Shown here piece by piece: positions 1 to 21,284 of a DNA stretch of 24,018 nt. The position numbers were made by a program, and so were the translations under genes. The notes below the pieces were generated by a model. The model was not told the DNA's origin, made no database searches, and worked only from the letters and a program-made list of their open reading frames with translations. Numbering within the stretch: the stretch's first letter is position 1; each line of letters opens with the position of its first letter. This stretch comes from a virus: the IMG/VR virus record IMGVR_UViG_3300009002_000043, positions 1 to 24,018 of that record. The stretch is one strand, 5' to 3'.

Positions 1-450
1 AACTGTATAGGTAACTTGATTAGGAGTAAATTGATATCCAGCTAGTGTAGGTTTAACTGGAACCATAAGCGGGCTAAAGATCAAGTCGCCTTTCACAAAG
101 CCCTTGAAGTCTGTTGGCACGGACTGTTCTAGGAAACCAAACATGTGGTAGAAGTCCTGTGCCATCAATTTACGCCAGTCTTCGCCTTGGCCAACTGTTA
201 ACACGTGAGTTCTGATATCTTCGGGTGTATATGATGGTTTGTTTTTGCGCCAACCGTAAATCGTAGCCATGCAAAACTTACCATCGCTATCGCGCCCATA
301 ATACAATGCTGCTTTGCCGTCCCATTTAATACTGATGTCATCTTGGCTAGATGCAAACGAAGCTAGGATATCTGTTGCTTGTGTTGCACCTTCGCTACCG
401 TAAAAGAACACTAAGTCTTCAATGTGATTGAATTCTCTGCCCTTTGTCAT
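1..450 (-). CDS. KxDG ligase-like (nucleotidyltransferase-fold) phage protein, 3' end outside window
   Basis: The frame is open from ATG at 450 to the window edge, giving the first 150 residues. The sequence around residues 41-48 (IKWDGKAA) resembles nucleotidyl-transfer motif I (K-x-D-G) of the DNA/RNA ligase and capping-enzyme superfamily, with K42 as the candidate nucleotide-accepting lysine. Residues 117-126 (FVKGDLIFSP) resemble the G-[ED]-L motif III of the same fold. Phage proteins with a KWDG core are common in marine myoviruses and mostly have no assigned function. The start codon overlaps the stop of the upstream nucleotidyltransferase gene (ATGA), so the two are probably translationally coupled. 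The ligase-fold assignment is inference from two short motifs. The remaining motifs (IV, V) would lie outside the window. Confidence 0.6.
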   Translation of the reverse strand, partial: MTKGREFNHIEDLVFFYGSEGATQATDILASFASSQDDISIKWDGKAALYYGRDSDGKFCMATIYGWRKNKPSYTPEDIRTHVLTVGQGEDWRKLMAQDFYHMFGFLEQSVPTDFKGFVKGDLIFSPLMVPVKPTLAGYQFTPNQVTYTV

Positions 451-1238
451 TTCAAGTATTCCTTAATTTCATCTGGCACACCAAGCTTTTGAATATTCGG
501 GTCAGCTTCCAAATCACGCGCAATTCGACTGACAACTGCTGAGGGTTGATTTTTTAGAATAGAAGCCCAAACAGTTTCAAAGCTATCTAAATTTTGAATA
601 CTATCAAGTTTCAATCGAGCAACAATAATTGCAGGGCTATACCAAGGACCATCAATCACTGTGTTGATAACTTGTTTGGTATAACCCTTTCCATCCTTAC
701 GAGGTTTCGGCTCACGTGTAATGCGAACAAGCCCTCGGTTAGACGAAAACATATATCGTTTTGTCAACGGCGTCATATCGATGGGATCATTAGTTTCATA
801 TCGATCGACATATTGACTAAGTGCACCCAATGTGATGTTTCGGTGAGCGCCTTTGTATTTGCTGACGCCTTCTGCAGGTGCATGATAAAACGTTTTAAGC
901 CATGCAATATTGGGATCAGTCATAAAGTCAACTTGCACATATCCTGTACGAGGTTGATCAGTTTCAACTGTGCTGTCATAGTTTTGGATTTCAACACGCG
1001 CAATAACAACAAGGACAGACTTCTTTGCAAAATCTACAATCTTGCATTTGTTGAGTCGGTCCAGTAGTATCGGGATCTGTTCTTTGTCAAGCTGCACTGC
1101 AACATCAATGTCACCTGATATTGTTCGTTTACCTGTGCTGCCTAGCATGTTGTTGCATAAATCAAATCCTAAGTCTTGCTCCAGTCGTCGCAAGGTAGGT
1201 TCGATTTCACTTATGTGGATTGCTCCTTCGCCTTTCAT
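447..1238 (-). CDS. DNA polymerase beta-type nucleotidyltransferase
   Basis: A 263-aa protein when started at ATG 1238. A GTG nine bases upstream is possible, but the AAGAGG ribosome site is correctly spaced (8 nt) only for the ATG. Residues 33-46 carry the family signature: GS, then SGDIDV. A third acidic residue lies in a VQVDFM strand (D104). D43, D45 and D104 therefore make a complete metal-binding triad of the Pol-beta nucleotidyltransferase superfamily. Such enzymes add nucleotides to RNA, proteins or small molecules, and the substrate here cannot be told. The gene lies in a probable late unit behind an 86-aa gene. Its stop overlaps the start of a ligase-like gene, so the pair could work together, for example on nucleic-acid ends. 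That joint role is inference. Confidence 0.8.
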   Translation of the reverse strand: MKGEGAIHISEIEPTLRRLEQDLGFDLCNNMLGSTGKRTISGDIDVAVQLDKEQIPILLDRLNKCKIVDFAKKSVLVVIARVEIQNYDSTVETDQPRTGYVQVDFMTDPNIAWLKTFYHAPAEGVSKYKGAHRNITLGALSQYVDRYETNDPIDMTPLTKRYMFSSNRGLVRITREPKPRKDGKGYTKQVINTVIDGPWYSPAIIVARLKLDSIQNLDSFETVWASILKNQPSAVVSRIARDLEADPNIQKLGVPDEIKEYLK

Positions 1239-1260
1239 GGCGTACACCTCTTGATAAGGG

Positions 1261-1555: not shown

Positions 1556-2944
1556 TTATTCAGTACGACGCAGGATATTCTTAAGTTTATCTGCGTTATT
1601 GATGACTGCTTCTGCTTGGTTTGGTTTGTGACTGCTAGCCGACTGTGTAGCTGTACCGCCTTCTTGTAATTTTTTGTACAATCCGGATGTAGTCACTGTT
1701 TCTGAATCCTCTGCGTCTTCATCTAAGTCACTAATGCGCAAACTGTCAAGATTGAAATCTAAGTCAATCTTTTGACCGACGCCGCTACTAGAACGTGTTT
1801 TCATAAACTGAATTTGAATACGGCCTCGTTCCTTCATTGCACGACTTGTAAAGATACCAATCACGTTGTCTGCTGTTTGAATTTTACTCAAACCACCTGC
1901 AATGTGACTGTGGTCGAACTCAATCTCATCAACTGCGCCTCTGTTCAACTGTGACGCGGTTGCAAACAAGTAATTGCCTTCCATTGCAAAGTTGCGCAAT
2001 TCTTCACTTACATGCTTGTCCTTTTGCGAAATGTTATCGCTTGAGATTTTAACCTTTGCTGGGTTCATCAAGTCAAGGTAGTCCAACAGCACACAATCAA
2101 CTGTTAGTTTGTGCTGAATTTGATATTCTTTAATGTATGCTTTAAGATCGTTTACGTTGATACCGTTAGGTAACTGCACGATTTGCAGTTTGCCAAACTT
2201 TTTGCCCTTTAACGCAATCTTTAACGCAACATCATCTTTGTTCTTAAATAAATCCTTGGTTGTGTATCCTGTTAACATGCTGTCTAGTCGCATACCACAA
2301 AGGTCTTCTGAAAGTTCCAAAGACACATACAATACGTTGTATCCTTTTTCTGCCCAATTCAACGCAAGGTTTTGTAAGAACAAACTCTTACCTGCGCCTG
2401 AGCCACCAGCAAAGATGTTGAGTTCACCTCTGTTAAATCCACCGTAAAGTGGATAGTCCATGGTTGTCCAACCAGTGCTTGTGCCGCCCTTGTCTGCTGC
2501 AATGCGTTCTAGTCGTGCTAATGGATTCTCCCAATAGTCTGTGCCCAGCTCTTTAGCCAAGCCAATTGCAACAGCGTCTTTAATCAACTGTTCAACTGCA
2601 CCGTATTCCTGCTTTTCAAGTTTGTCTGTGCTCGCAAGAATTGCGCGTTCAAGTGCCTTGTGTCGGCAGAATCTCTCAAAGTCATCAATAAACCATTTGC
2701 GGTGGTCTTCACTGCTTTGGCCTAGAGCTTGTAACTCTGTTCCAGTCTTTGCTTTAATTTGATTGAGTTCAGGTATACGTCCATATTCTTCTACGTAGTC
2801 ACGCAAAAACTTCACAGTTGGTTTTAGTGTGCGGTCAAAAAATTCCTCGTCGAGAATTGAGTTGCAACGTACAAACAACTCGTGGTCGCTTACTAAAAAC
2901 TCAACATATAGTTTTTGTAATTCAATCGTGTATTCTTCTGCCAT
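1556..2944 (-). CDS. 41: replicative DNA helicase (T4 gp41 / DnaB family)
   Basis: A 462-aa hexameric 5'-3' helicase that unwinds the fork and works with the primase encoded just upstream. Residues 1-130 form the helical N-terminal domain. The RecA-like motor follows with Walker A GGSGAGKS (about 180-187), the Walker B strand VDCVLLDYLDL (282-292) and an SQLNR segment near 331, as in DnaB-family helicases. The length matches T4 gp41 (475 aa). ATG 2944 is preceded by AAGGAT and begins 3 nt after the stop of the 89-aa gene. The order primase, small gene, helicase mirrors the functional gp61-gp41 pairing of T4. The C-terminal 60 residues are low-complexity and polar, which is usual for this family. 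Confidence 0.95.
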   Translation of the reverse strand: MAEEYTIELQKLYVEFLVSDHELFVRCNSILDEEFFDRTLKPTVKFLRDYVEEYGRIPELNQIKAKTGTELQALGQSSEDHRKWFIDDFERFCRHKALERAILASTDKLEKQEYGAVEQLIKDAVAIGLAKELGTDYWENPLARLERIAADKGGTSTGWTTMDYPLYGGFNRGELNIFAGGSGAGKSLFLQNLALNWAEKGYNVLYVSLELSEDLCGMRLDSMLTGYTTKDLFKNKDDVALKIALKGKKFGKLQIVQLPNGINVNDLKAYIKEYQIQHKLTVDCVLLDYLDLMNPAKVKISSDNISQKDKHVSEELRNFAMEGNYLFATASQLNRGAVDEIEFDHSHIAGGLSKIQTADNVIGIFTSRAMKERGRIQIQFMKTRSSSGVGQKIDLDFNLDSLRISDLDEDAEDSETVTTSGLYKKLQEGGTATQSASSHKPNQAEAVINNADKLKNILRRTE

Positions 2945-3227: not shown

Positions 3228-4241
3228 TCATTTCAGATACTTTCGCGCTAACACCCTAATCTTTGTAGGGTTAGAGATAGCTGCGTCAATTACTGACTTT
3301 AACACAAATGATCTGCCATATTCTTCTGCTGCGCTTGCTGCATCCTTGTGCGTGTCCATCCATTCAGGAAACGAAACTGACCAATCATTTTTAATGGCCG
3401 GTTCAATTAATTCACTTCCCGGCTTGTCTGCGTCTGGCAGTAATATTGTTTTCTTTTTGAGCTCGTTAATCAAACTGGCTTGACCTTCGCTCACACTGTT
3501 GCTGCCAAGGGCCATGCCGTCTAACACAATTGCATCAAAGTCGCCTTCAGTTACAATTGCTAGCTTTCTACTTCTGCTTTGTCTATCCAAGTTGAACACA
3601 AAGTTAGGTGGCGTACTTCTCAAGTATTTAGGTGTCAAGTCGTTTGGTGGTGTGCCAATATAACGAGCAGTATGTCCAACAATGTTGCCCTTGTAACGAA
3701 ACGGCAATATGATGCGCTTCTTAAATTTGAAGTCACTTGCCGTGTAAGCCCAGTCAGTCCAATGCAGCAATTGTCGTTGCTGCAACATCTCTATGCCCTT
3801 CACAAAATTTGGATGTATTGTGTCAGAATCTTGATGCAGTAACAGCGTCGATCCTGCAGGCAAATCAACTGTTGGCCATTCAGGAACAAACGCAGGTGTT
3901 TCTTCTTGCATAGGGTTTAGAAACCTAGTTGTTTCTTCCTCCCGCAATAACTCCAAACTCATGCGCTGTATCTCTGCTTCTTCTACACCAAAGCCCTTTA
4001 ACAGTAAACGGTTCTTGTCTGTTATCTTTTGTCCAACCTTCCAGCCAGTAGCAAAATGACAGTTAAAGCAATGGTACACCCATTCGTCTTCTCCAAACTG
4101 AAATCCGCCTCTGCGCTTTACATCATTACGAGCTTCGCCGTTGTGTACGCAGACAGGACAGTTGCCAGATAGCCAGCCGCCGCTCTTTAGTGTCCAGCCT
4201 GCTGGAACCCGAGATCTGATAAATTGTACGAAAAAATGCAT
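3228..4241 (-). CDS. 61: DNA primase (T4 gp61-like)
   Basis: A 337-aa DnaG-type primase that makes RNA primers for lagging-strand synthesis. An N-terminal zinc-binding domain is visible with CPVC (C28, C31) and CFNC (C58, C61). The TOPRIM catalytic core has the acidic motif TEGDFDAI (E232) and the second metal motif LPDADKPG (D270, D272). Length and domain order match T4 gp61 (342 aa). The protein is read with the downstream helicase gp41. The start has no Shine-Dalgarno sequence, and a sigma70-like promoter (4249-4277) places +1 at or one base before the ATG, so the mRNA may be leaderless. Confidence 0.93.
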   Translation of the reverse strand: MHFFVQFIRSRVPAGWTLKSGGWLSGNCPVCVHNGEARNDVKRRGGFQFGEDEWVYHCFNCHFATGWKVGQKITDKNRLLLKGFGVEEAEIQRMSLELLREEETTRFLNPMQEETPAFVPEWPTVDLPAGSTLLLHQDSDTIHPNFVKGIEMLQQRQLLHWTDWAYTASDFKFKKRIILPFRYKGNIVGHTARYIGTPPNDLTPKYLRSTPPNFVFNLDRQSRSRKLAIVTEGDFDAIVLDGMALGSNSVSEGQASLINELKKKTILLPDADKPGSELIEPAIKNDWSVSFPEWMDTHKDAASAAEEYGRSFVLKSVIDAAISNPTKIRVLARKYLK

Positions 4242-4799: not shown

Positions 4800-5168
4800 A
4801 TGACAGCAAATAAACTCCTTGAAGAATTTCCATTCTTAACACTTGCCACATATGGTAAGAATGAGTATCTTGGAATTATACAAAACCAAGATGGCAACCT
4901 CATTTCGATGTATGTATACGAAGAGATAAAAACAGCAGAATTGCGTAAAGCATTTCTAGATCATGGAGCAGAATGGTGGTGGGAAACAAACCGAACCATT
5001 CCAATCAACATCATTTTAGGCGAACGTTTTACCATCTACCGCGACAGCCTGCGCACATTCAATATCAAGGACTTTTTAATTGTAACAGGACCAAGTGTAT
5101 GTCTTAAGGACATTATGCAAAAGCGTGTAAAACGAAAGAATGTCCAGCTTATCCGTCGTGTAGACTAG
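4800..5168 (+). CDS. hypothetical protein, one of two plus-strand genes
   Basis: A 122-aa protein of mixed alpha/beta type with a tryptophan-rich centre (EWWWETNR) and a strongly basic end (KRVKRKNVQLIRR). I recognise no family. The reading frame is open further upstream (to 4713), but that part overlaps the divergent gene and would give an implausible cysteine/phenylalanine-rich extension. ATG 4800 is preferred because it sits immediately downstream of a late promoter box. The last 20 bases overlap the convergent 2OG oxygenase gene. The basic tail suggests nucleic-acid contact, which is inference. Confidence 0.75.
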   Translation: MTANKLLEEFPFLTLATYGKNEYLGIIQNQDGNLISMYVYEEIKTAELRKAFLDHGAEWWWETNRTIPINIILGERFTIYRDSLRTFNIKDFLIVTGPSVCLKDIMQKRVKRKNVQLIRRVD

Positions 5169-5826
5169 ATTCGTACGCAACCAATTCGTCAACTATATCA
5201 CCTTCAACATAATTAAGCAACAGTACATATCGCTTAGTGGTCTGATGATTGATCATTTGCGAATGCAGTGTTCTGGCATCCCAAACAGCAATGTCACCAA
5301 ATTCTAAGTGTATTGTTTGTGATTTTTCCTTAAACATCTCATTGTACGTTCCTTTGTAACATTCTTCAATCGGCCATGTCTTTCGGTGGCTGTGTGCCAA
5401 GAATGCAGTGCCACCCATTCCATCATACCATTCATTAAGAGGCACAGACATTTGAATGCCTAATCGTCTATCAGGAGAATGATTCCATGGTGGGTGTCTA
5501 TGTGGTGTGTCAACATGCGGCCTAATAAGACTTGATCCGGGCGCCAATACACTTACATCACTTCCATAAAAATATGCGTCATCAAGCAAAGTGCCTGCAA
5601 TCTCATCCAAACGCTTGCGTATTTGAGTTACATGATAATTTTCAGTTAAGTCTACTCCCCAATAGTTAGACCAATCTACATTGGGTGTCGGCCGATCATA
5701 ATAATTGCCTTTACGGTCGTGTCCGCGTTGAGGAATATCCCACGCAGGGCACATTTCAATAAGACTTAGTAGCTGGACGACAGGTACTTCTTTTTCAATT
5801 TTTGTAAAACCTATATCATGTATCAA
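5149..5826 (-). CDS. 2-oxoglutarate/Fe(II)-dependent dioxygenase (PhyH/aspartyl-hydroxylase-like)
   Basis: A 225-aa double-stranded beta-helix oxygenase. The iron-binding facial triad is visible as H104-x-D106 (IRPHVDTPHR) and H188 (TLHSQ), with R199 as the 2-oxoglutarate-binding arginine. GDIAVWDARTLHS is the typical strand before the distal histidine. Such enzymes hydroxylate proteins, nucleobases or lipids and are common in marine T4-like phages. The substrate cannot be read here. The start is most probably TTG 5826, which overlaps the stop of the upstream mini-DnaE gene as TTGA, and no in-frame ATG occurs for 28 codons. The 3' end overlaps the convergent gene ending at 5168. Confidence 0.85.
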   Translation of the reverse strand: MIHDIGFTKIEKEVPVVQLLSLIEMCPAWDIPQRGHDRKGNYYDRPTPNVDWSNYWGVDLTENYHVTQIRKRLDEIAGTLLDDAYFYGSDVSVLAPGSSLIRPHVDTPHRHPPWNHSPDRRLGIQMSVPLNEWYDGMGGTAFLAHSHRKTWPIEECYKGTYNEMFKEKSQTIHLEFGDIAVWDARTLHSQMINHQTTKRYVLLLNYVEGDIVDELVAYESSLHDG

Positions 5827-6401
5827 TTATATTGCTCCGTTAACAAGTTCATGTGCAGTTTGACTGCCATAGCATATCCCACAGCGTGTGACTTCTTAAA
5901 GAAGTATTCATCGTTGTCGGGCACTAGCCATACTTCATCCATTACTTCATCCCAGCTCTTTCCGACCAAATGTCGTTTTGCTGGGCGGATCATAGCCAGC
6001 ACTGCGGCCAGTTGTGAGATTGTTTTTGGCTTCATTGTTTGGCACAAGCTGTGGTGTCCACGCATGTGGAACAACATATCGCAAAAGTCTTTTTCTTCGA
6101 GCAATTCCCACATCGGTTCACGCTCTAGCAATTGATCCATATGTTGATTGCCTTTCACGTCTTTGTAAATGCTAACGTTGAGTACGTCAATTTTAAAGTA
6201 GCCAATATCTTCTGCTTCTTTGTAATCAAGTGTGCAACGGTTAGTGAAAGGATCAACAGGCACATCGTGAAAGTATACGCCTGTGTTGTGTCCTTTCTTT
6301 TTGCCACTTGAATGGTTGCTTGCTGCAACGTGCTTGAATAGTTTTAGTACCTCGGTTCTGTCGGGTACGTCAATGTCAATATCTGTTACGACTGGCTTCA
6401 T
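5823..6401 (-). CDS. miniature DnaE-like protein (C-family DNA polymerase palm, 192 aa)
   Basis: Several landmarks of bacterial DNA polymerase III alpha occur in the correct order. They are the TDIDIDVPDR motif (D7, D9, D11; DnaE has PDxDxDF with two catalytic aspartates), an HNTGVYF segment (39-45; DnaE HAAGVVI), GYFKIDVL (67-74; DnaE LLKxDFLG, third catalytic aspartate D72), an AMIRP segment (136-140; DnaE LYRPG) and KKSHAVGYA (169-177; DnaE NKSHAAAYA). DnaE is about 1100-1200 aa, and this protein keeps only a condensed palm and parts of the fingers, with no PHP, beta-binding or OB domain. I chose ATG 6401 (TAATG overlap with the upstream stop, GAGGTGG before it) over GTG 6410. The homology is inference from motifs. 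The activity is unknown, and it may be a small polymerase, a non-catalytic regulator or another nucleotidyl transferase. Confidence 0.75.
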   Translation of the reverse strand: MKPVVTDIDIDVPDRTEVLKLFKHVAASNHSSGKKKGHNTGVYFHDVPVDPFTNRCTLDYKEAEDIGYFKIDVLNVSIYKDVKGNQHMDQLLEREPMWELLEEKDFCDMLFHMRGHHSLCQTMKPKTISQLAAVLAMIRPAKRHLVGKSWDEVMDEVWLVPDNDEYFFKKSHAVGYAMAVKLHMNLLTEQYN

Positions 6402-6670
6402 TAGCACCACCTCAATTTAAACAGCACGATTGTAGCTTCATCTTGAAACACAACAACTGGACCATCAAATTTAATATCATAGTCCTTGCTCCATTCTTCC
6501 ATTTCGTTCATTAAACATTCTGTCCAATAAGCTTTGTTTGGAAGTATGTATCCATAACCGTTGTAAACATGACGTCCGAGCGGTAGCATTTTACATGTCC
6601 ATCGTTCGTTTTCAGACATAGTGGCTACTCTTATCATTTCTTCAAATACAACATCCGGATCTCTCTTCAT
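6401..6670 (-). CDS. hypothetical protein upstream of mini-DnaE
   Basis: An 89-aa protein when started at ATG 6670, where ATGA overlaps the stop of the zinc-finger gene. A longer frame is open to 6730 but would overlap that gene by 64 nt. The sequence has an N-terminal helix (DPDVVFEEMIRVAT), a GYGYILPNK turn and two C-terminal strands (GPVVVFQDEATIVLFKLRW). I recognise no family. Tight coupling on both sides (ATGA upstream, TAATG downstream) suggests it is made together with the mini-DnaE protein. Confidence 0.65.
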   Translation of the reverse strand: MKRDPDVVFEEMIRVATMSENERWTCKMLPLGRHVYNGYGYILPNKAYWTECLMNEMEEWSKDYDIKFDGPVVVFQDEATIVLFKLRWC

Positions 6671-7329
6671 GCTAATACTTCTCTTATCCATTGCACAGTT
6701 GACTTGTTTAATCCAATCTTGCGATTCCAATATGCCAAGTCAATAGTGTCTGCAATCTCATTTAACACTTCATCAGGCATCTGTTCAAGTTGTAGTCGTG
6801 CAGGCTGATAGCTCAACAACACCCAAGGAGATATTTTACCCATCTTGACATCGTGCACAATTCTGTTCATGCCTGCACTCTGCCAATACTGAGTCCAATG
6901 GTGTCCTGTGCGTTCACTCCACTCTTGTGCATGTAGCACAAATCGTTCGAGCCCGCGCTCTGCTGTTTCTTTCTTGCTTTGAAATGCAAGGTAGCGATTG
7001 TAAACTGAATCCTTTGCCCAATCATCAATCTTAACAGCGTTGTCAACTAGCCAATGCATATATTGCTCAGGCGCAAAGATACGTGCCTCAAGCACATACA
7101 TTCCAAAACGCACAAACGCTGCATAGTATTGGCTTTTTGCAAAGTCGTCATATGTCTTGGCTTTGCGACTGCCCATTGCACGTCTATACCAATCATCAAA
7201 AAACTTTAGACCAAGTCTAACGTGCTGTTCGTCCTTTTGCAGATATCGTTTTTTATTACGACACATGTGCTTTGCTAAGGTTGACTCGCGTTTGTATTCG
7301 CTGCCACAATATTCACATTTAAACGTCAT
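6667..7329 (-). CDS. zinc-finger-containing conserved phage protein
   Basis: A 220-aa protein with an N-terminal C2H2-like zinc finger (C5, C8, H21, C23; CEYCGSEYKRESTLAKHMC) followed by a basic linker and a long helical domain rich in tryptophan and tyrosine. The finger suggests binding to DNA, RNA or a protein partner. I know no experimentally defined function for this architecture. The start at ATG 7329 overlaps the stop of the gp62-like gene (ATGA), and the stop overlaps the next start (ATGA). It therefore lies in a chain of translationally coupled replication-associated genes. Confidence 0.75.
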   Translation of the reverse strand: MTFKCEYCGSEYKRESTLAKHMCRNKKRYLQKDEQHVRLGLKFFDDWYRRAMGSRKAKTYDDFAKSQYYAAFVRFGMYVLEARIFAPEQYMHWLVDNAVKIDDWAKDSVYNRYLAFQSKKETAERGLERFVLHAQEWSERTGHHWTQYWQSAGMNRIVHDVKMGKISPWVLLSYQPARLQLEQMPDEVLNEIADTIDLAYWNRKIGLNKSTVQWIREVLA

Positions 7330-8314: not shown

Positions 8315-8442
8315 TGCGTGTCTCTATATTTTGCCATGGCTGATTGTATTACAGCCTGGACTCTGTCTGCTGGCATGTTGCCAACATCAACTTGGTATAC
8401 TGTTCTGCCATCGGGCAACAGATTCTTTTCTATTGTTGTCAT
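8311..8442 (-). CDS. 43-aa small protein coupled to uvsW
   Basis: A short gene between uvsW and the 166-aa gene. ATG 8442 overlaps the uvsW stop (ATGA), and its TGA overlaps the TTG start of the next gene (TTGA), so it fills the gap exactly. The product has a beta hairpin (LLPDGRTVYQVDVG) followed by an amphipathic helix (ADRVQAVIQSAMAKY). No family is recognised. The perfect double coupling is the main support for it being real. Confidence 0.65.
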   Translation of the reverse strand: MTTIEKNLLPDGRTVYQVDVGNMPADRVQAVIQSAMAKYRDTH

Positions 8443-9992
8443 TTATTCTGCCTCTGTTTAAATCGTGCTGCAATTCCAGTGTCCTTGCGCCAATCAACTT
8501 TGAGAATCTTGTATGGATAATTTGCGTCCTTGTAAAACTTCTTGCGACTGGTGAGGTGTCGTTTACTAAATTTAGCAGTTGACGTAAAGTCGTAAATATT
8601 GACAAAGTCTTTATCTTTCGCTTTACGCAAACCACGACCAATACTTTGGATAACTCTAACAAAACTCTTGCCCGGTTCGAGCAGGACCATGTTAAAGATG
8701 CGTGGCACGTTGATACCTACGGCTGCAACACCGTAAGTGGCGACAATGATTTTATTGTCGCTGGAGGCAATCTCTTTATAGTGATCCCTCCGACTGTCAT
8801 TTTTCATTTGCCCACTAACCAACACTGTGCGGTCAGCAGGTAGTCTGTCAACAAGTCCTTGTCCTGCTGCAATACGATCAACCAGAACCAGCGTGTTGCC
8901 GCTTTCTGATATTTGAAGTATTGTCTCAGCAATGTAGTCAAGTCGTTTGCTGTCTGTTGTAAGATACGTGAGTTCGTTTTGGTAATTGTCGTACAACACG
9001 TCGTCTACCATTTGTATGACATCAACGTGACAGTTACTCAAGATGCCTTCTTCTTGCAGTGTTGATGCAGCTAGTTCTCCGACCACGCTGCCCAAGCTTA
9101 CTTTGATACCCATCTGTTCATGTTCAGCTTTTGGTATGGTACCTGTTAGTCCCCAACGTAATGGCACATTCTTAAATGGGCCTGTCAAGAGCTTTTTGAG
9201 TACATCAGCTTTAGCTTGGTGTGTTTCGTCAACAATCAGTGCTATAACACCTTCCGAAAACTCCTCGAGGCTGAGTTCGCTTTCGCCGTCCTTAAACGTC
9301 TTGTGTATTCTTTCCAAGCTTTGCCATGTGCAAATGGTGTGTGTCTTGCCAAAGTCCTTGCGGTCGCCAAAATACACACCAACGTCAAGTCCGAGGTTGA
9401 TGTAGTCTTCTTCTGTTTGCGTTACTAATCCTTTGTTTGGAACGATAACAATTGTTCGTCCAACACTAGAGCCTGTGCCCAGCTTGTGGATAAACTGGTC
9501 GTCTTGTGACAGTGATTGTTCGACAATTTGGCTAAGGGCGGCAGTGATAAGTGTCTTACCTGCGCCCGTAGCAATTTCTTGGATGCTCATTGGATTGTCA
9601 AGGAATTGATTGATTACCTTTTGTTGGTAATCTCTCAGCATTACAGGTTCACCTTCTACAGGATGACCTTTAGGCCAATTCTTATCTGCAAAGTGATCTA
9701 TGTTAATTTGGGGGAGGTCAAACTGGTAGCGTACACGTTCGTCTTGCAACTCGACTTCATACCCTTCGTCCAACAATATTGGAAGAATATCTTCGAGCAA
9801 TGCTACATATGTCAATGCGCCGAATGTGAAGAATGTTGTCTTACCGTCCCATCGTCCTAATTTAAAGGATGGAACATGATAAGCATGTGGCAAAATAAAG
9901 GAAAACTTTTCCTGTAATTTTTTGCGCGTTGCTGCACTCAGTCCGTGTATTTTACAGTTAACCTCATCTTTTAATTCGATGGTGGCTATCAT
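8439..9992 (-). CDS. uvsW: UvsW-type superfamily 2 DNA helicase
   Basis: A 517-aa SF2 helicase related to T4 UvsW, which unwinds R-loops and branched recombination intermediates and promotes the switch to recombination-dependent replication. Visible motifs are Q-motif/motif I LRDYQQ then ATGAGKT (141-147), motif II DETH (255-258), motif III LTGTIPK, and motif VI QSIGRGLRK. The N-terminal 110 residues correspond to the small accessory domain of UvsW. No Shine-Dalgarno sequence precedes ATG 9992, and a strong sigma70-like promoter puts +1 on this A. It is the first gene of a long coupled run extending to 5149. Confidence 0.93.
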   Translation of the reverse strand: MIATIELKDEVNCKIHGLSAATRKKLQEKFSFILPHAYHVPSFKLGRWDGKTTFFTFGALTYVALLEDILPILLDEGYEVELQDERVRYQFDLPQINIDHFADKNWPKGHPVEGEPVMLRDYQQKVINQFLDNPMSIQEIATGAGKTLITAALSQIVEQSLSQDDQFIHKLGTGSSVGRTIVIVPNKGLVTQTEEDYINLGLDVGVYFGDRKDFGKTHTICTWQSLERIHKTFKDGESELSLEEFSEGVIALIVDETHQAKADVLKKLLTGPFKNVPLRWGLTGTIPKAEHEQMGIKVSLGSVVGELAASTLQEEGILSNCHVDVIQMVDDVLYDNYQNELTYLTTDSKRLDYIAETILQISESGNTLVLVDRIAAGQGLVDRLPADRTVLVSGQMKNDSRRDHYKEIASSDNKIIVATYGVAAVGINVPRIFNMVLLEPGKSFVRVIQSIGRGLRKAKDKDFVNIYDFTSTAKFSKRHLTSRKKFYKDANYPYKILKVDWRKDTGIAARFKQRQNK

Positions 9993-11580: not shown

Positions 11581-11632
11581 TAGGTCAACAACAAACCTGC
11601 ATTATATAGCAGATTTGTTGCTTCTAGACCTA
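11581..11632 (-). terminator. long intergenic hairpin between 246-aa gene and AAA ATPase
   Basis: A 12-bp stem (11589-11600 with 11609-11620, one G-U wobble in the transcript, 8-nt loop) is enclosed by an outer 6-bp stem TAGGTC/GACCTA (11581-11586 with 11627-11632). No clean U-tract follows in the minus direction, so it could be an attenuator, processing site or stabilising structure rather than an intrinsic terminator. Confidence 0.55.
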
Positions 11633-11645
11633 ATTAGTGGCGGAC

Positions 11646-12386
11646 TTATTTCTCAATCTTAACGCGATTGAACATTGTTTCGTGACAGCCCGTGTACTCG
11701 CTTATTTGCTGATCGCGCACTGCGCCAACAAAAGTAATACGCTGGTCGCGCAGTCGTTCGCTTACGTCAACGTCGTTGTCCTTTAGAAAGAACTTGACAA
11801 TCTGATCGTTGTCAGTAACCATTGTGACAAGATAGATGTTGTTCTTTGGGATCCACTTTGCGTCAAGAACCTTTGCTTCGACCTTAACACGTTCCTTGGG
11901 CTTGCCAACATAGCTGCCGATGTGCTTGTTTTTGAGGTAAAACTCCTCCATCTGATCACGCCGTTCTTGGATCACATAGCTGTTTGGCAACGATGCAATC
12001 ATAGACAAGTCACGCGCATGGTCGACATTTTCTTCGCCGAAGATTTCAATCAGCTTTTCGTCATACTCGTTAATGTCGTCGCTCAACTTTGCGATCATTG
12101 TCTTTTGGTCGAAGAAGCGACACACCTTTGCAGCGTGTTCACGGTCTTCGTCGGTGATAGTTGCTACGTGGATCTTTTCGTCGCGCTGGTCCTCAGGGCG
12201 CAATGTGTTCAACACAATTTCTCGGCTTTCAGCGACCTTCATGTTTGACTTGTGGTCAATATAGTTTTGTCCACGACGGACAAATCCAAACTCGCGATAT
12301 ACTGCGCATGCCGCAGCCATTGCTTCAAGCAACGGATAAACTTCACTTGTTTTGCGGTATGCCCGCGCCGTTTTATATCTGTGCAT
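11646..12386 (-). CDS. phage protein with probable C-terminal OB-fold
   Basis: A 246-aa protein. Residues 1-160 are helical and charged. Residues about 165-246 read as five strands with the typical OB layout (VKVEAKVLDAKW, YLVTMVTDNDQIVKFFLKD, then RITFVGAVRDQQ and TMFNRVKI), like the nucleic-acid-binding domain attached to several phage replication proteins. No named family is recognised. Binding of single-stranded DNA or RNA is inference. A sigma70-like promoter (12416-12444) and an AAGGA ribosome site precede ATG 12386, and the AAA ATPase follows after a hairpin. Confidence 0.75.
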   Translation of the reverse strand: MHRYKTARAYRKTSEVYPLLEAMAAACAVYREFGFVRRGQNYIDHKSNMKVAESREIVLNTLRPEDQRDEKIHVATITDEDREHAAKVCRFFDQKTMIAKLSDDINEYDEKLIEIFGEENVDHARDLSMIASLPNSYVIQERRDQMEEFYLKNKHIGSYVGKPKERVKVEAKVLDAKWIPKNNIYLVTMVTDNDQIVKFFLKDNDVDVSERLRDQRITFVGAVRDQQISEYTGCHETMFNRVKIEK

Positions 12387-14790: not shown

Positions 14791-15891
14791 TTAATCCTCT
14801 GTTGTTTCTTCAATTGCTTCAGCGTCAATATCATTGTCATCCATTTCAACTTGGATATCGTGCATATCAAACTCATTCATTACTACGTCTAAGCAACCGT
14901 CGTCGTTACGTTCCCATCCTTTGCGGAACAACTTAAACACTTCGCCTGTTTCTTTGCTGATGTATTCAAGCTTGTTGCCTGTTTTAGCAAGCAACCCTGT
15001 TCCTTCAAAAAAGTCTGTTAGACCCGAGTATGGATTCATACCAGTCTCGTAAGGAATTTTGATCTGAACTGTTTCAAACGGCTTTGCATAACGTGTCTTG
15101 ACAACCTTGCATGATGCACGGATACCTTTAACTTGCGAAATCTTGTTGCCGTCTTCGTCCTCTTTCAACTTGAGCTTTTTCATTGCAACCACAATTGATG
15201 ATGCAAAAATCATGCCCGAGCCGCCCGAGATCTTGTCGTCTGGATCAAACATGTCTTGGCTTGCATATGTGTGGTTGGTACATACGAGTCCAATGTTTAA
15301 GTCACCAAACATGTTGACACAGTTGGTTACAAGTGCTTTAAGCTGCTTGGCCTTACGACCAAAGTCACCTTTCATGTCACCTGCCTGGAACTGATTGATT
15401 TCAGTTGGCGACATAAGCATACCCAAACTGTCTACAACAAACATAACTGGTGGACGTTCTTCGTCAGGTACGCTGCTGTAGTCTTCACGATAACTTGTAA
15501 CAAAGTCGCTAATAACTTTACCGACTTCGTCAATCATTGCCATGTTTAACTTTAACAGCTTGTCCTCTGTTGTGTCAACATCTAATGCATGTAGCCATTT
15601 TTCGTCAAGTGCGTTCTCGCTGTCAATTAGTACAACGTAGATGCCTTGCTCTTGTGCGCTCTTAACAAGGTTGCCCGAACAGATAAAGCTTTTGCCTGCG
15701 CCGCTTTCGCCTGCAAACATTGTAACCTTACCTAGTGGAACACCTTTGTGGAAATCGCCCGATATCAATTTATTGAGTGTGTAGTTGCCTGTTGAGACCC
15801 ATGTGTCCGGGTCACGGAATCCTACACTAATTCCTTTAACACTTTTTGTCACGCCTTTGCGGAACTTTGAAACGTCAAATGCTCTTGCCAT
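14791..15891 (-). CDS. uvsX: UvsX recombinase (RecA/Rad51 family)
   Basis: A 366-aa strand-exchange protein that forms filaments on single-stranded DNA and drives recombination-dependent replication together with gp32 and UvsW. Walker A is GESGAGKS (61-68), the Walker B strand is MFVVDSLG (D154), and a C-terminal acidic tail (EMDDNDIDAEAIEETTED) resembles that of other RecA-family proteins. The length is close to T4 UvsX (391 aa). ATG 15891 overlaps the stop of the 52-aa gene (TAATG). The gene sits in an operon with gp32 upstream and several small genes downstream. Confidence 0.95.
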   Translation of the reverse strand: MARAFDVSKFRKGVTKSVKGISVGFRDPDTWVSTGNYTLNKLISGDFHKGVPLGKVTMFAGESGAGKSFICSGNLVKSAQEQGIYVVLIDSENALDEKWLHALDVDTTEDKLLKLNMAMIDEVGKVISDFVTSYREDYSSVPDEERPPVMFVVDSLGMLMSPTEINQFQAGDMKGDFGRKAKQLKALVTNCVNMFGDLNIGLVCTNHTYASQDMFDPDDKISGGSGMIFASSIVVAMKKLKLKEDEDGNKISQVKGIRASCKVVKTRYAKPFETVQIKIPYETGMNPYSGLTDFFEGTGLLAKTGNKLEYISKETGEVFKLFRKGWERNDDGCLDVVMNEFDMHDIQVEMDDNDIDAEAIEETTED

Positions 15892-16103: not shown

Positions 16104-16124
16104 GAAACAAACTTAGTTTGTTTC
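16104..16124 (-). terminator. perfect 9-bp hairpin with the gene 32 stop codon in its loop
   Basis: GAAACAAAC and GTTTGTTTC flank the three bases of the TAA stop codon at 16113-16115. It lies three bases before the C(UUCG)G hairpin, so the 3' end of gene 32 is a double stem-loop. Confidence 0.7.
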
Positions 16125-17105
16125 TTTACGTGCGCGAATTGCAGCAAGGATATCTTTTGCATCCTTAGTGCCTTCGCTTGCAGCCGGCTTTTCAACTGGT
16201 GCAGGTGCTGATGCAATTGGTGCATCCTCAACTGGAGTTGATGCTTTTGTTTCTGCTGCTGGAGTAGATGGTGCAGGCTCTGCTGTTTGAGTGCTACCAG
16301 TATTTGGCTTGTCAAGGCCCCATGGACGGTAGTAGTCTGCAAAGCGCTCTGGATCGTACAGTTCGCCTTCAACACTTGCTTCAAACATTTCAAAAATTGC
16401 ATTCAATTCTTCTGCGTTTGGTTCTTTTGGCATGTAATCGTTTAGATTGTGCAAGCCATGTTCCGCGATGATGTCGCGCTCTGCTTGATCTAATCCGCGC
16501 TCTTTACGTGCCCAGCCGGATGTGCTATAGTCTGCATATTGACCCTTTTGCGTCTTAGTAATGCGGAAGTCAGTACCGTTTTCAATGTCAGTTGGAAGGT
16601 AATCACCAAAGTCCGGATCCATCAATGCACCGCTAATTGTCTTGTAGATAGACGGCGAGATTGTGAAACGACGAATTGGGTTAGCTGGAGCGTCATCCTC
16701 TACCAGAGGTGAATCTACAATCAATCCTTGGAAAAGATAGCTGCGCTTTTTCCAATACTTACGCGCCATATCTTCCATGGTCGGATCTTTAAACCATGGA
16801 CGAATTTCACGGTGTACCGGACATTCTTTGCCCCACATCTCAATGCATGGCACTTGAACAATAACTTGCTTTGACTCGTCATGTCCTTTAACGCCAGTAA
16901 ATGGGATCTTAATCATCAGGCGCTCGCGCCAGAAGTAATCGTTAGTCGCGTCTCCATCTTCTAGAAAGCGAACTGTTACTGTTGAATTGTCTGGAATGTT
17001 CCAATGTGGGAAAACTGAGTTGTCTCTGTTTCCGCCTGTTGCGTTTCCGCCTTTTGTCTTTTCTGCCGCGAGTAATTTTGCGCGGATTTCTGCTAGTGTA
17101 GCCAT
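16113..17105 (-). CDS. 32: single-stranded DNA-binding protein (T4 gp32-like)
   Basis: A 330-aa replication/recombination SSB. Residues about 30-230 form the OB-fold core, with a zinc-binding set H75, C87, C95, H98, similar in spacing to T4 gp32 (H, C, C, C). Residues about 265-315 are an alanine/proline/threonine-rich linker. Unlike T4 gp32 the extreme C-terminus is basic (DILAAIRARKETN) and looks like a copy of the N-terminal LAEIRAKLLAAEK helix. AGGAG precedes ATG 17105. A sigma70-like promoter and a 76-nt leader with a tandem repeat lie upstream, and a double hairpin follows. Confidence 0.92.
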   Translation of the reverse strand: MATLAEIRAKLLAAEKTKGGNATGGNRDNSVFPHWNIPDNSTVTVRFLEDGDATNDYFWRERLMIKIPFTGVKGHDESKQVIVQVPCIEMWGKECPVHREIRPWFKDPTMEDMARKYWKKRSYLFQGLIVDSPLVEDDAPANPIRRFTISPSIYKTISGALMDPDFGDYLPTDIENGTDFRITKTQKGQYADYSTSGWARKERGLDQAERDIIAEHGLHNLNDYMPKEPNAEELNAIFEMFEASVEGELYDPERFADYYRPWGLDKPNTGSTQTAEPAPSTPAAETKASTPVEDAPIASAPAPVEKPAASEGTKDAKDILAAIRARKETN

Positions 17106-19053: not shown

Positions 19054-19061
19054 TATTTATG
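19054..19061 (-). promoter_or_regulatory. T4-type late promoter (CATAAATA) of the 600-aa gene
   Basis: CATAAATA on the minus strand, five bases before ATG 19048, overlapping the last codons of the glycosyltransferase-like gene. T4 spacing puts +1 on the A of the ATG. No Shine-Dalgarno sequence is present. Confidence 0.55.
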
Positions 19062-20130
19062 CCTTGACGACATTTTTGATCTGTATCTTGACAGGATCAA
19101 TTTTGTTCTCACGGCTAAGATAGTTTTTGGAGTTAGAAAAATTGTAGTGCTTCATAACATAATGATCGGACAAGTTTTCCTTTATCCAATCGTTTACGTC
19201 ATTTTTAGACATTGGCTCTGGTAATTCCCACATGTGGAAATCAAACATTTCTTTCCATGCTTTGGCTTCCATAAATTTGATGCGATCCCTAGACCCCATT
19301 AGTCGTACCTTGACTGTACCAGTTGACTTAGCAACTGTATATCCAACTGCAATAAACTTTGACGAGATACTGCGATCAGTGTAAACCCATTCCAGTCTGT
19401 CATATGCTTCTTTCAGTGCTTGGTTGTTTTCTTTGTAGTCGCCTGCTTTGTGCGCCCATGACGATGTTGTAACTAGCTCGTCTTGAATAATGTTGTTGAT
19501 CTGTGCTGCTTTCCAACCATTCGCATAACACCATTCAGACATCAAGATTGATTCACCTGTTGCCATTGTTTGTTCTGTGTTGCGCTCGTTTTCAAGATAG
19601 CTGTAATTGATTTGCAATTCAACATCAGCATGTTTCTTCCAATTCAGCATAATGAACGCTGATTCTTTCCACTTGAATGGTGATGTCTTTAATAGGAAAT
19701 ACTGGTCTAGTTCTTCTTTGTTTAATGCGCCACGTGGAGTTCTGATAGGATCGATAAATGTCATCAATCCAATTTTGTTTTCTAGCAGTGTTGGAATTGC
19801 TTGATCAAAGTTTTTGATAATTTCAAGATCGGACACTTCGTCTAAAATCGTGTCGTTGTCTAGGAATAATGCGTAGTCGTCATCTGTTTGTTCAAAGTGT
19901 TTGAACAATATGTTTCTAGCATCAACAGGTCGATACGAACTGTTGTCGCCAATATAAGTTACACCAGCTGCTTCATAATGACAGTCTTGATAATTCTGAT
20001 TTAGGATGTAAACGTCAAAATTGTTTCGTAACAACCACGTCAATTGCATCGAATGTGCAGTTTGTCTAGCATAGTTCAACTTGGTGTCAATCTTTTTGCT
20101 ACTCATATATGAGATTATGTATGCTTTCAT
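19057..20130 (-). CDS. glycosyltransferase-like protein, paralogue 1
   Basis: A 357-aa protein. The N-terminus MKAYIISY begins a Rossmann-like GT-A fold, and DDDYALFLDNDT (D91-x-D93) is the DxD metal/nucleotide-sugar motif. A conserved GES-x-L-x-[SA]-E-x-CYANG segment lies near residue 195. The same order occurs in the divergent gene at 20223. Phage enzymes of this type may glycosylate virion proteins, DNA or host surface sugars. The acceptor is unknown. AAAGGA precedes ATG 20130. A late-promoter variant (20168-20161) lies 30 nt upstream. Confidence 0.8.
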   Translation of the reverse strand: MKAYIISYMSSKKIDTKLNYARQTAHSMQLTWLLRNNFDVYILNQNYQDCHYEAAGVTYIGDNSSYRPVDARNILFKHFEQTDDDYALFLDNDTILDEVSDLEIIKNFDQAIPTLLENKIGLMTFIDPIRTPRGALNKEELDQYFLLKTSPFKWKESAFIMLNWKKHADVELQINYSYLENERNTEQTMATGESILMSEWCYANGWKAAQINNIIQDELVTTSSWAHKAGDYKENNQALKEAYDRLEWVYTDRSISSKFIAVGYTVAKSTGTVKVRLMGSRDRIKFMEAKAWKEMFDFHMWELPEPMSKNDVNDWIKENLSDHYVMKHYNFSNSKNYLSRENKIDPVKIQIKNVVKA

Positions 20131-20222: not shown

Positions 20223-21284
20223 ATGAAAGCATACATTATTTCTTACTTTGGAACAAAGGAACCAGAGAAGCGTAAAGAACAACACCTACAGCAACTTGAG
20301 TTTTTAAAGGAGCACAACTTTGATGTATATGTGCTCAATCAAGAATATAACGAAAACGATTACAGTCCCAACGTTTCATACATTGGCGACAATAAGCGTA
20401 TGCGTCCTGTCGACGGGCGAAACATACTGTTTGAACAGTTTTATAATACAGATGATGACTATGCGTTCTTTTTTGACAACGACACACTGATAACTGTTTA
20501 TTCTGAACGAAACGTTCTTGAGGCAGTGTTTAGGAAAGAAACGCATCAAGCATTGCTTGATGCACACATTGGCTGCGCATCGCTTGCAAATCCAATCCAT
20601 GTGCCCGGCGACTTGATATATTCACTAAACAAAGAACTATATGACACAAAACTAATGGTTAGAACTACGCCGGTTGAGTTTAAAGAAAGCTGCTTTATGA
20701 TGGTGAATTGGAATAAACATTTAGGACAGAAATTCTATGTTGATTACAACTTGCTTGTGAATGAGCGCAATCGTGACTTCAATATGGCAAATGGCGAGTC
20801 AATGCTAGTGGCCGAGCAGTGTTATGCAAACGGATACAAGGCAGCATCATTACCACAATTGATGCTATCAGAATTCTCGTCTAAGTCTACTTGGGCAGGA
20901 TCACAAGCTGAATACCGTTCCAACATCATTGCTAAAGAAGAAATGTTTAAAAGACTAGGCTGGAAATATCAATCAATTCGAGCAGGTGAGACAAAGTATC
21001 GCTATATTGGATACGTGCAGACTGAAGGCAAAGATCGCATTTCGTACAGACGAATTAGAGATGAACGGCGCATTGCTGATTTACATGGCTATAAAAAGCA
21101 CAATCAGAAATTTGAGTATTGGCATCTTCCATATCCGATGACTAACAGCGAAATGTCCGAACATGCTCGAATTGAGTTTGCTGAACATCCTATTATGTCT
21201 AAGTTTCCTGCCTATTCAGATAGAGACAAGATCAAATTGATTGGACGCCCTAATTTTGTTCCAGGGTTAGATTTGCCTCTTTAA
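20223..21284 (+). CDS. glycosyltransferase-like protein, paralogue 2
   Basis: A 353-aa protein and clear paralogue of the divergent gene. Shared blocks in order are MKAYIISY, HNFDVYVLNQ, YIGDN, RPVDGRNILF, DDDYAFFFDNDT (DxD at 85-87), KES-x-F-MMVNW-x-KH, NGESMLVAEQCYANGYKAA and a C-terminal LPYPM segment. It is one of only two plus-strand genes. Its stop overlaps the terminase stop within a shared TTAA. The function (sugar donor and acceptor) cannot be told. Two diverged copies may act on different acceptors. Confidence 0.8.
   Translation: MKAYIISYFGTKEPEKRKEQHLQQLEFLKEHNFDVYVLNQEYNENDYSPNVSYIGDNKRMRPVDGRNILFEQFYNTDDDYAFFFDNDTLITVYSERNVLEAVFRKETHQALLDAHIGCASLANPIHVPGDLIYSLNKELYDTKLMVRTTPVEFKESCFMMVNWNKHLGQKFYVDYNLLVNERNRDFNMANGESMLVAEQCYANGYKAASLPQLMLSEFSSKSTWAGSQAEYRSNIIAKEEMFKRLGWKYQSIRAGETKYRYIGYVQTEGKDRISYRRIRDERRIADLHGYKKHNQKFEYWHLPYPMTNSEMSEHARIEFAEHPIMSKFPAYSDRDKIKLIGRPNFVPGLDLPL

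Follow-up and report, generated by a model that had tools for sequence, protein, structure and literature searches.

The window, that is the whole stretch of DNA that was analysed, is a virus record of 24,018 bases, and the genome of its phage is known from these 24 kb alone. Its minus strand carries a replication and recombination operon with genes for a gp32-like single-stranded DNA-binding protein (SSB), UvsX/RecA, UvsW, several small conserved proteins, the protein studied here (hereafter C), a primase and a DnaB helicase. The C gene is an ORF of 192 aa that starts with ATG at 6401 and ends with TGA at 5825-5823; a plus-strand reading of 5823-6401 was rejected because stops close the frame. 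The synteny of UvsX, UvsW, primase and helicase is shared by the window and its relatives, and the features are as follows.

1556-2944, minus strand: DnaB-type replicative helicase (T4 gp41), PF03796 at 9.6e-20
3228-4241, minus strand: putative primase of the T4 gp61 type, assigned from its position as in relatives and a zinc-ribbon motif (CPVC..CFNC) only; no Pfam match
5823-6401, minus strand: C, 192 aa, probable subunit of a split minimal DNA polymerase III alpha, assigned from phrog_11778, conservation, AlphaFold2 and Foldseek
6405-6414, minus strand: Shine-Dalgarno-like GAGGTGG just 5' of the ATG at 6401, from the sequence
6401-6730, minus strand: ORF of 109 aa upstream of the C gene, its stop overlapping the C start (TAATG); no PHROG match
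6667-7329, minus strand: C2H2-zinc-finger-like protein of 220 aa, a conserved neighbour (phrog_11058)
8439-9992, minus strand: UvsW-type helicase, in conserved synteny, with the same order in relatives
14791-15891, minus strand: UvsX/RecA recombinase, in conserved synteny
16113-17105, minus strand: gp32-like ssDNA-binding protein, PF08804 at 1.6e-5, just under the cut-off

A neighbour resembling the zinc-finger-like protein was also recognised by eye in a marine relative (L196). Directly downstream of the C gene, with a 4-base overlap, lies a gene for a 225-aa PhyH-like (phytanoyl-CoA dioxygenase-type) protein (5149-5826, minus strand), for which the Pfam match is sub-threshold, and most relatives have an opposite-strand gene at that place. 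Two genes downstream of the DnaB helicase, a 266-aa protein (447-1247, minus strand) carries a signature of the Pol-beta nucleotidyltransferase superfamily (GSTGKRTISGDIDVAV); searches of Pfam, PHROG, NCBIfam and PDB gave no match, and distant homologues were found only in PA5oct-like phages (a 'structural protein', MS-detected) and in Phosso. A divergent, duplicated pair of related proteins of ~355 aa (MKAYIISY...; 19057-20130, minus strand, and 20223-21284, plus strand), glycosyltransferase-like by eye, adjoins the terminase gene.

The C protein contains the motifs DIDID (residues 7-11), HNTG (38), KID (70-72), IRP (138-140) and KSHA (170-173) in the order in which DnaE has them. It matched the profile phrog_11778 ('DNA polymerase') over its full length, from residue 5 to 190 of 192 (2.7e-63), and as a single sequence it also matched the full-length phage DnaE family phrog_405 in two stretches (1e-7). 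A single-sequence search of the PDB returned nothing meaningful, with DnaE appearing only at E=1.1, and a family profile was therefore needed. The best match of this profile, built from 34 sequences, among 177,635 distinct PDB sequences was DnaE (5lew, E=0.0025), aligned in four colinear pieces at positions 412-425 (DIDID), 483-524 (weak), 568-663 (the region from the third aspartate to the fingers) and 773-788 (KSHA). Aligned profile to profile with DnaE of E. coli and phages, C scored 37.6, compared with 17.3 +/- 3.1 and a maximum of 27.0 for 100 column shuffles, and as far as these profiles reach the motif matches to DnaE are no chance; against cellular DnaE alone, hhalign gave a probability of 30% only.

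The AlphaFold2 model of C (pLDDT 92.6, pTM 0.76) retrieved PolIII alpha from the PDB at Foldseek ranks 1 to 16 and nothing else sensible, with probabilities up to 1.00, which points to the Pol-beta-like palm fold of PolIII alpha; the E-values are modest (1.7e-3 for C, and 1.4e-2 for the partner protein N described below), and the TM-scores to PolIII alpha are about 0.34-0.51. Pfam recognised in C only a sub-threshold finger domain (PF17657, 15.6 bits against a cut-off of 22), and neither the PHP, full fingers, HhH and OB domains nor a beta-clamp-binding region. The spacing between DIDID and HxxG is also shortened, with ~30 residues in C versus ~110 in E. coli DnaE. Judged from these profiles and from the predicted model, the 192-aa protein is a true DnaE relative, since its best PDB profile match is DnaE, its model matches PolIII alpha, and D7, D9, D11 and D72 are invariant.

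These metal ligands are kept by all distinct relatives whose sequence extends over them. The three aspartates of DxDxD are present in 99/99 distinct C sequences, and the third aspartate, the R-P of the fingers and the histidine of KSHA in 103/103 each, at an overall identity in the family of about 50%; the conserved residues also include H38/G41, R139-P140 and H172. A sequence-only reading of the window had described the protein as a miniature DnaE with every palm landmark in order. The present analysis bears out its homology to the DnaE palm, its counterparts of the three catalytic aspartates and its lack of the PHP, beta-binding and OB parts; the profile score lies above the level of chance and the predicted structure does resemble a Pol-beta-like palm. 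The claim of a complete set of landmarks holds for DIDID, HNTG, KID, IRP and KSHA and fails for GRGS.

GRGS is the first palm motif of DnaE (R362-G363-S364 in E. coli), and it is absent from C together with the preceding helices, although complete C-family polymerases (DnaE/PolC) carry it in the same chain. The GRGS loop holds the triphosphate of the incoming nucleotide. When 11 relatives were searched whole with phrog_405, each proved to have another small ORF, N (family phrog_11127), that corresponds to DnaE positions ~322-437. N ends with ...GVGRGSSVASYxLYLIGxHxVDSxKYxLDxxEFLK, the counterpart of ...GRGSGAGSLVAY...FERFLN in DnaE, where MPDFDVDF follows a few residues past FERFLN, which is where C starts (TDIDIDV). 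The end of N and the start of C thus fall at adjacent DnaE positions, and the split point is the same in all phages seen. The N profile (44 sequences) matched DnaE at E=2e-10, with a score of 81.4 versus a null maximum of 22.0, and its PDB sequence matches were exclusively PolIII alpha; the N model (pLDDT 92.5) had PolIII alpha at ranks 1 to 17. Matches of the N profile keep R, G and S of the GRGS motif in 86/86 cases. Fused single-ORF forms of N and C were not found among 186 sequences, and at three loci a 566-aa ORF with a match resembling N proved to be a separate single-chain DnaE and no fusion.

In the 11 phages, N and C lie 14-224 kb apart, and N is located close to the clamp loader in CBB and, as recognised by the motif WTEKYRP, in several other records. 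No N gene was found in the 24-kb contig itself, nor in the contig of its closest relative (L026, 110 kb); we infer that the phage of the window has one as well. The two genes co-occur nearly without exception. Both are present in 11/11 relatives searched whole, and in a phage collection with C in 63 records (60 of them listed) and N in 60, a comparison of the lists shows that, of the 60 listed records with C, 59 have N too, the sole one without it being PP728206 (109.5 kb). Among 20 long viral contigs examined, nine reach 200 kb or more, and eight of these carry N as well as C; the ninth (G003, 219 kb), with C and no N, is an IMG/VR record that may be incomplete. Each half gave at least 600 pattern matches in viral contigs.

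The relatives also encode a family-B polymerase, with PolB (PF00136) over the cut-off in 11/11, and the motifs SLYP, K...NSLYG and DTDS are intact in the two that were read (RaK2 and Phosso). An A-family polymerase as main replicase was rejected, with no PolA over the cut-off in the relatives. A DnaQ-like exonuclease occurs in 9/11 phages and is absent from Phosso and SCTP-2, for which reason it was rejected as an obligatory third subunit. With PolB present in the relatives, and intact in the two read, their gene content indicates that the split polymerase is an addition to gp43 and does not replace it.

Considering these findings, we propose, with a probability of roughly 0.7, that T4-related jumbo phages possess a minimal C-family polymerase made of two chains, which works beside a PolB replisome, and that the C gene encodes its C-terminal subunit, the one that binds the metals. 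The palm would be cut between the GRGS loop, at the end of N (~170 aa), and the DxDxD strand that opens the 192-aa C, which would also carry the third aspartate and shortened thumb and fingers. Since the full active site is on neither chain alone, N and C, which are encoded far apart, are expected to dock; together, their about 360-370 residues would form a single Pol-beta-like active site, in which N would contribute GRGS and C would hold the metals. The processivity of such an enzyme would be low, as the PHP, clamp-binding and OB parts are missing. The position of C in a UvsX-UvsW-primase-helicase operon, and the complete B-family replicase of the relatives, suggest limited DNA synthesis alongside gp43, which may consist of gap filling, repair, recombination-coupled synthesis or synthesis of one strand, and perhaps primer processing. 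The reading in which N and C together form a working polymerase for a distinct step beside PolB, perhaps the smallest C-family enzyme with its ~360-370 residues, has in our estimate about an even chance.

An unlikely alternative is that N and C form a PolIII-alpha-like complex that is no DNA polymerase and instead acts as a nucleotidyltransferase on some other substrate or, by binding nucleotides or DNA, as an accessory to the gp43 replisome. The strong shortening of fingers and thumb (~30 versus ~110 residues), the absence of the tandem HhH, OB and clamp-binding parts altogether and the full PolB in the relatives are consistent with it, but the residues that line the polymerase site (GRGS, DxD, the third aspartate, the R-P of the fingers and the histidine of KSHA) have been conserved as a set, which fits templated addition of nucleotides. 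Far less probable is that C alone mimics the DnaE palm, binds partners of the host replisome and blocks host replication, a decoy role that the sequence-only reading had considered. C is small and, without GRGS, has no full active site by itself; a decoy would nevertheless have no need of metal ligands that are invariant in the distinct sequences covering them, nor would it be expected to co-occur with a complementary fragment, and the clamp-, tau- and epsilon-binding regions of DnaE are among the parts that are missing, while the operon is the phage's own for replication and recombination. Slightly less probable still is that C forms a minimal polymerase complete in itself, in line with the earlier suggestion of an enzyme active in short-patch synthesis on its own: three catalytic aspartates lie on one chain with a compact, confidently predicted fold, yet the GRGS loop and the helices before it sit in a separate, co-conserved gene. 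A decaying, host-derived DnaE gene left in pieces is hardly credible, for although the polymerase is in two parts and shorter than cellular DnaE, each half is widespread in viral contigs, residues are invariant at an overall identity of about 50%, all phages seen share one split point, the ORF is intact with a ribosome-binding site, and frequent frameshifts or losses of catalytic residues were not seen in the relatives.

Marine relatives encode, in addition to C, a separate single-chain DnaE of ~560 aa with palm and fingers and without PHP (PF07733 at 1e-39, PF17657 at 1e-15); its gene belongs to the C operon, where it follows primase and helicase and lies a few kb downstream from C. Examples are L028:9100-10779, L196:8001-9683, L248, L272 and others. 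This single-chain DnaE gave 311 matches in viral contigs, and C was found at 38/80 of its loci. In the marine contigs that have it, which are fragments of up to 91 kb, no separate N and no PolB were seen. The uncultured 484-kb phage LR756508 has a single-chain DnaE (L186:2989-4713) together with PolB, and the split pair was not detected in it. Downstream of the single-chain DnaE of L196, an IscU-like iron-sulphur scaffold protein was recognised by eye (11619-12050, minus strand), and the PolB of LR756508 (260623-266900) is spread over two separated ORFs of 1022 and 625 aa, perhaps being split or containing an insertion. In hhalign, the C profile scored 47.3 against the single-chain family versus the 37.6 against E. 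coli and phage DnaE, with template alignments that differ in depth; as a weak test, this hints that C is nearer to the single-chain family, and thus at a reduction within phages. The presence of a PHP-less single-chain DnaE beside C is new to us. If N and C do make up a working enzyme, this protein would either be another polymerase with a task of its own or offer a third way in which the missing half-site is supplied.

The idea of a split enzyme is itself not new. In group 2.2 jumbo phages, Iyer et al. (2021) described a 'phage-specific minimal version' whose two proteins are encoded far apart, put it forward as a model for the ancestral enzyme, and suggested that it works together with PolB, either on one strand or in repair (PMC7824862). 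The sequence-only reading had likewise considered an ancestral minimal enzyme. The N piece had been noted before as a truncated or small DnaE, both as CBB_328 (172 aa; PMC5259590) and as Atu_ph07 gp316 (PMC6102473), and PF07733 was reported as the only PGC_A-unique gene in over half (51.9%) of a marine jumbo-phage cluster (PMC9123017). Our literature search, which included later papers, found no laboratory test of the split enzyme. The sequence-only reading had called a C-family core unexpected in T4-type phages; the relatives do retain a PolB resembling gp43 in addition, and the surprise is lessened by the description from 2021. What the current study contributes is a fixed split point, a near-perfect co-occurrence and clear residues to mutate. 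If active, the pair would represent the minimum for an active site of the bacterial replicase type, assembled from two chains, and a test system for the origin of C-family polymerases and for what the PHP, thumb and clamp-binding parts add. For a widespread phage group, it also raises the question of why a second, unrelated polymerase is kept next to gp43. In other phages, PHROG 13169 (463 aa) matches DnaE near its C-terminal end and PHROG 12219 (823 aa) in the first third, and these two 'DNA polymerase' families suggest, from their matches, another, larger split DnaE.

Overall, the window adds a member to the kind of split minimal PolIII alpha (PHROG 11778 for C, 11127 for N) described in 2021, with which it agrees in family and replication operon and, in its relatives, in the two-gene split, the distant genes and the coexistence with PolB. 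It differs in that the nearest isolate homologue of C, that of Sinorhizobium phage Phosso, shares 54% identity with it, and in that the C gene alone is seen in an uncultivated 24-kb contig. With cellular DnaE (PF07733 and PF17657; E. coli DnaE and M. tuberculosis DnaE1, 5lew), C shares counterparts of the palm residues D401/D403(/D405) and D555, the H-x-x-G motif, the R-P of the fingers and the K-S/P-H-A helix; in contrast, it has one sixth of the length, a short thumb and fingers, no PHP, HhH, clamp-binding or OB parts, and GRGS on another chain. The single-chain DnaE (L028, L196, L248, LR756508) is, like C, a reduced C-family palm with fingers and without PHP, but it is unsplit, has longer fingers and is much closer to cellular DnaE (PF07733 at the value given above). 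The family-B polymerase T4 gp43 (PHROG 262) is found in the same phages and the same replisome context as the split enzyme, whereas its palm fold is unrelated and it is a full-length polymerase with an exonuclease.
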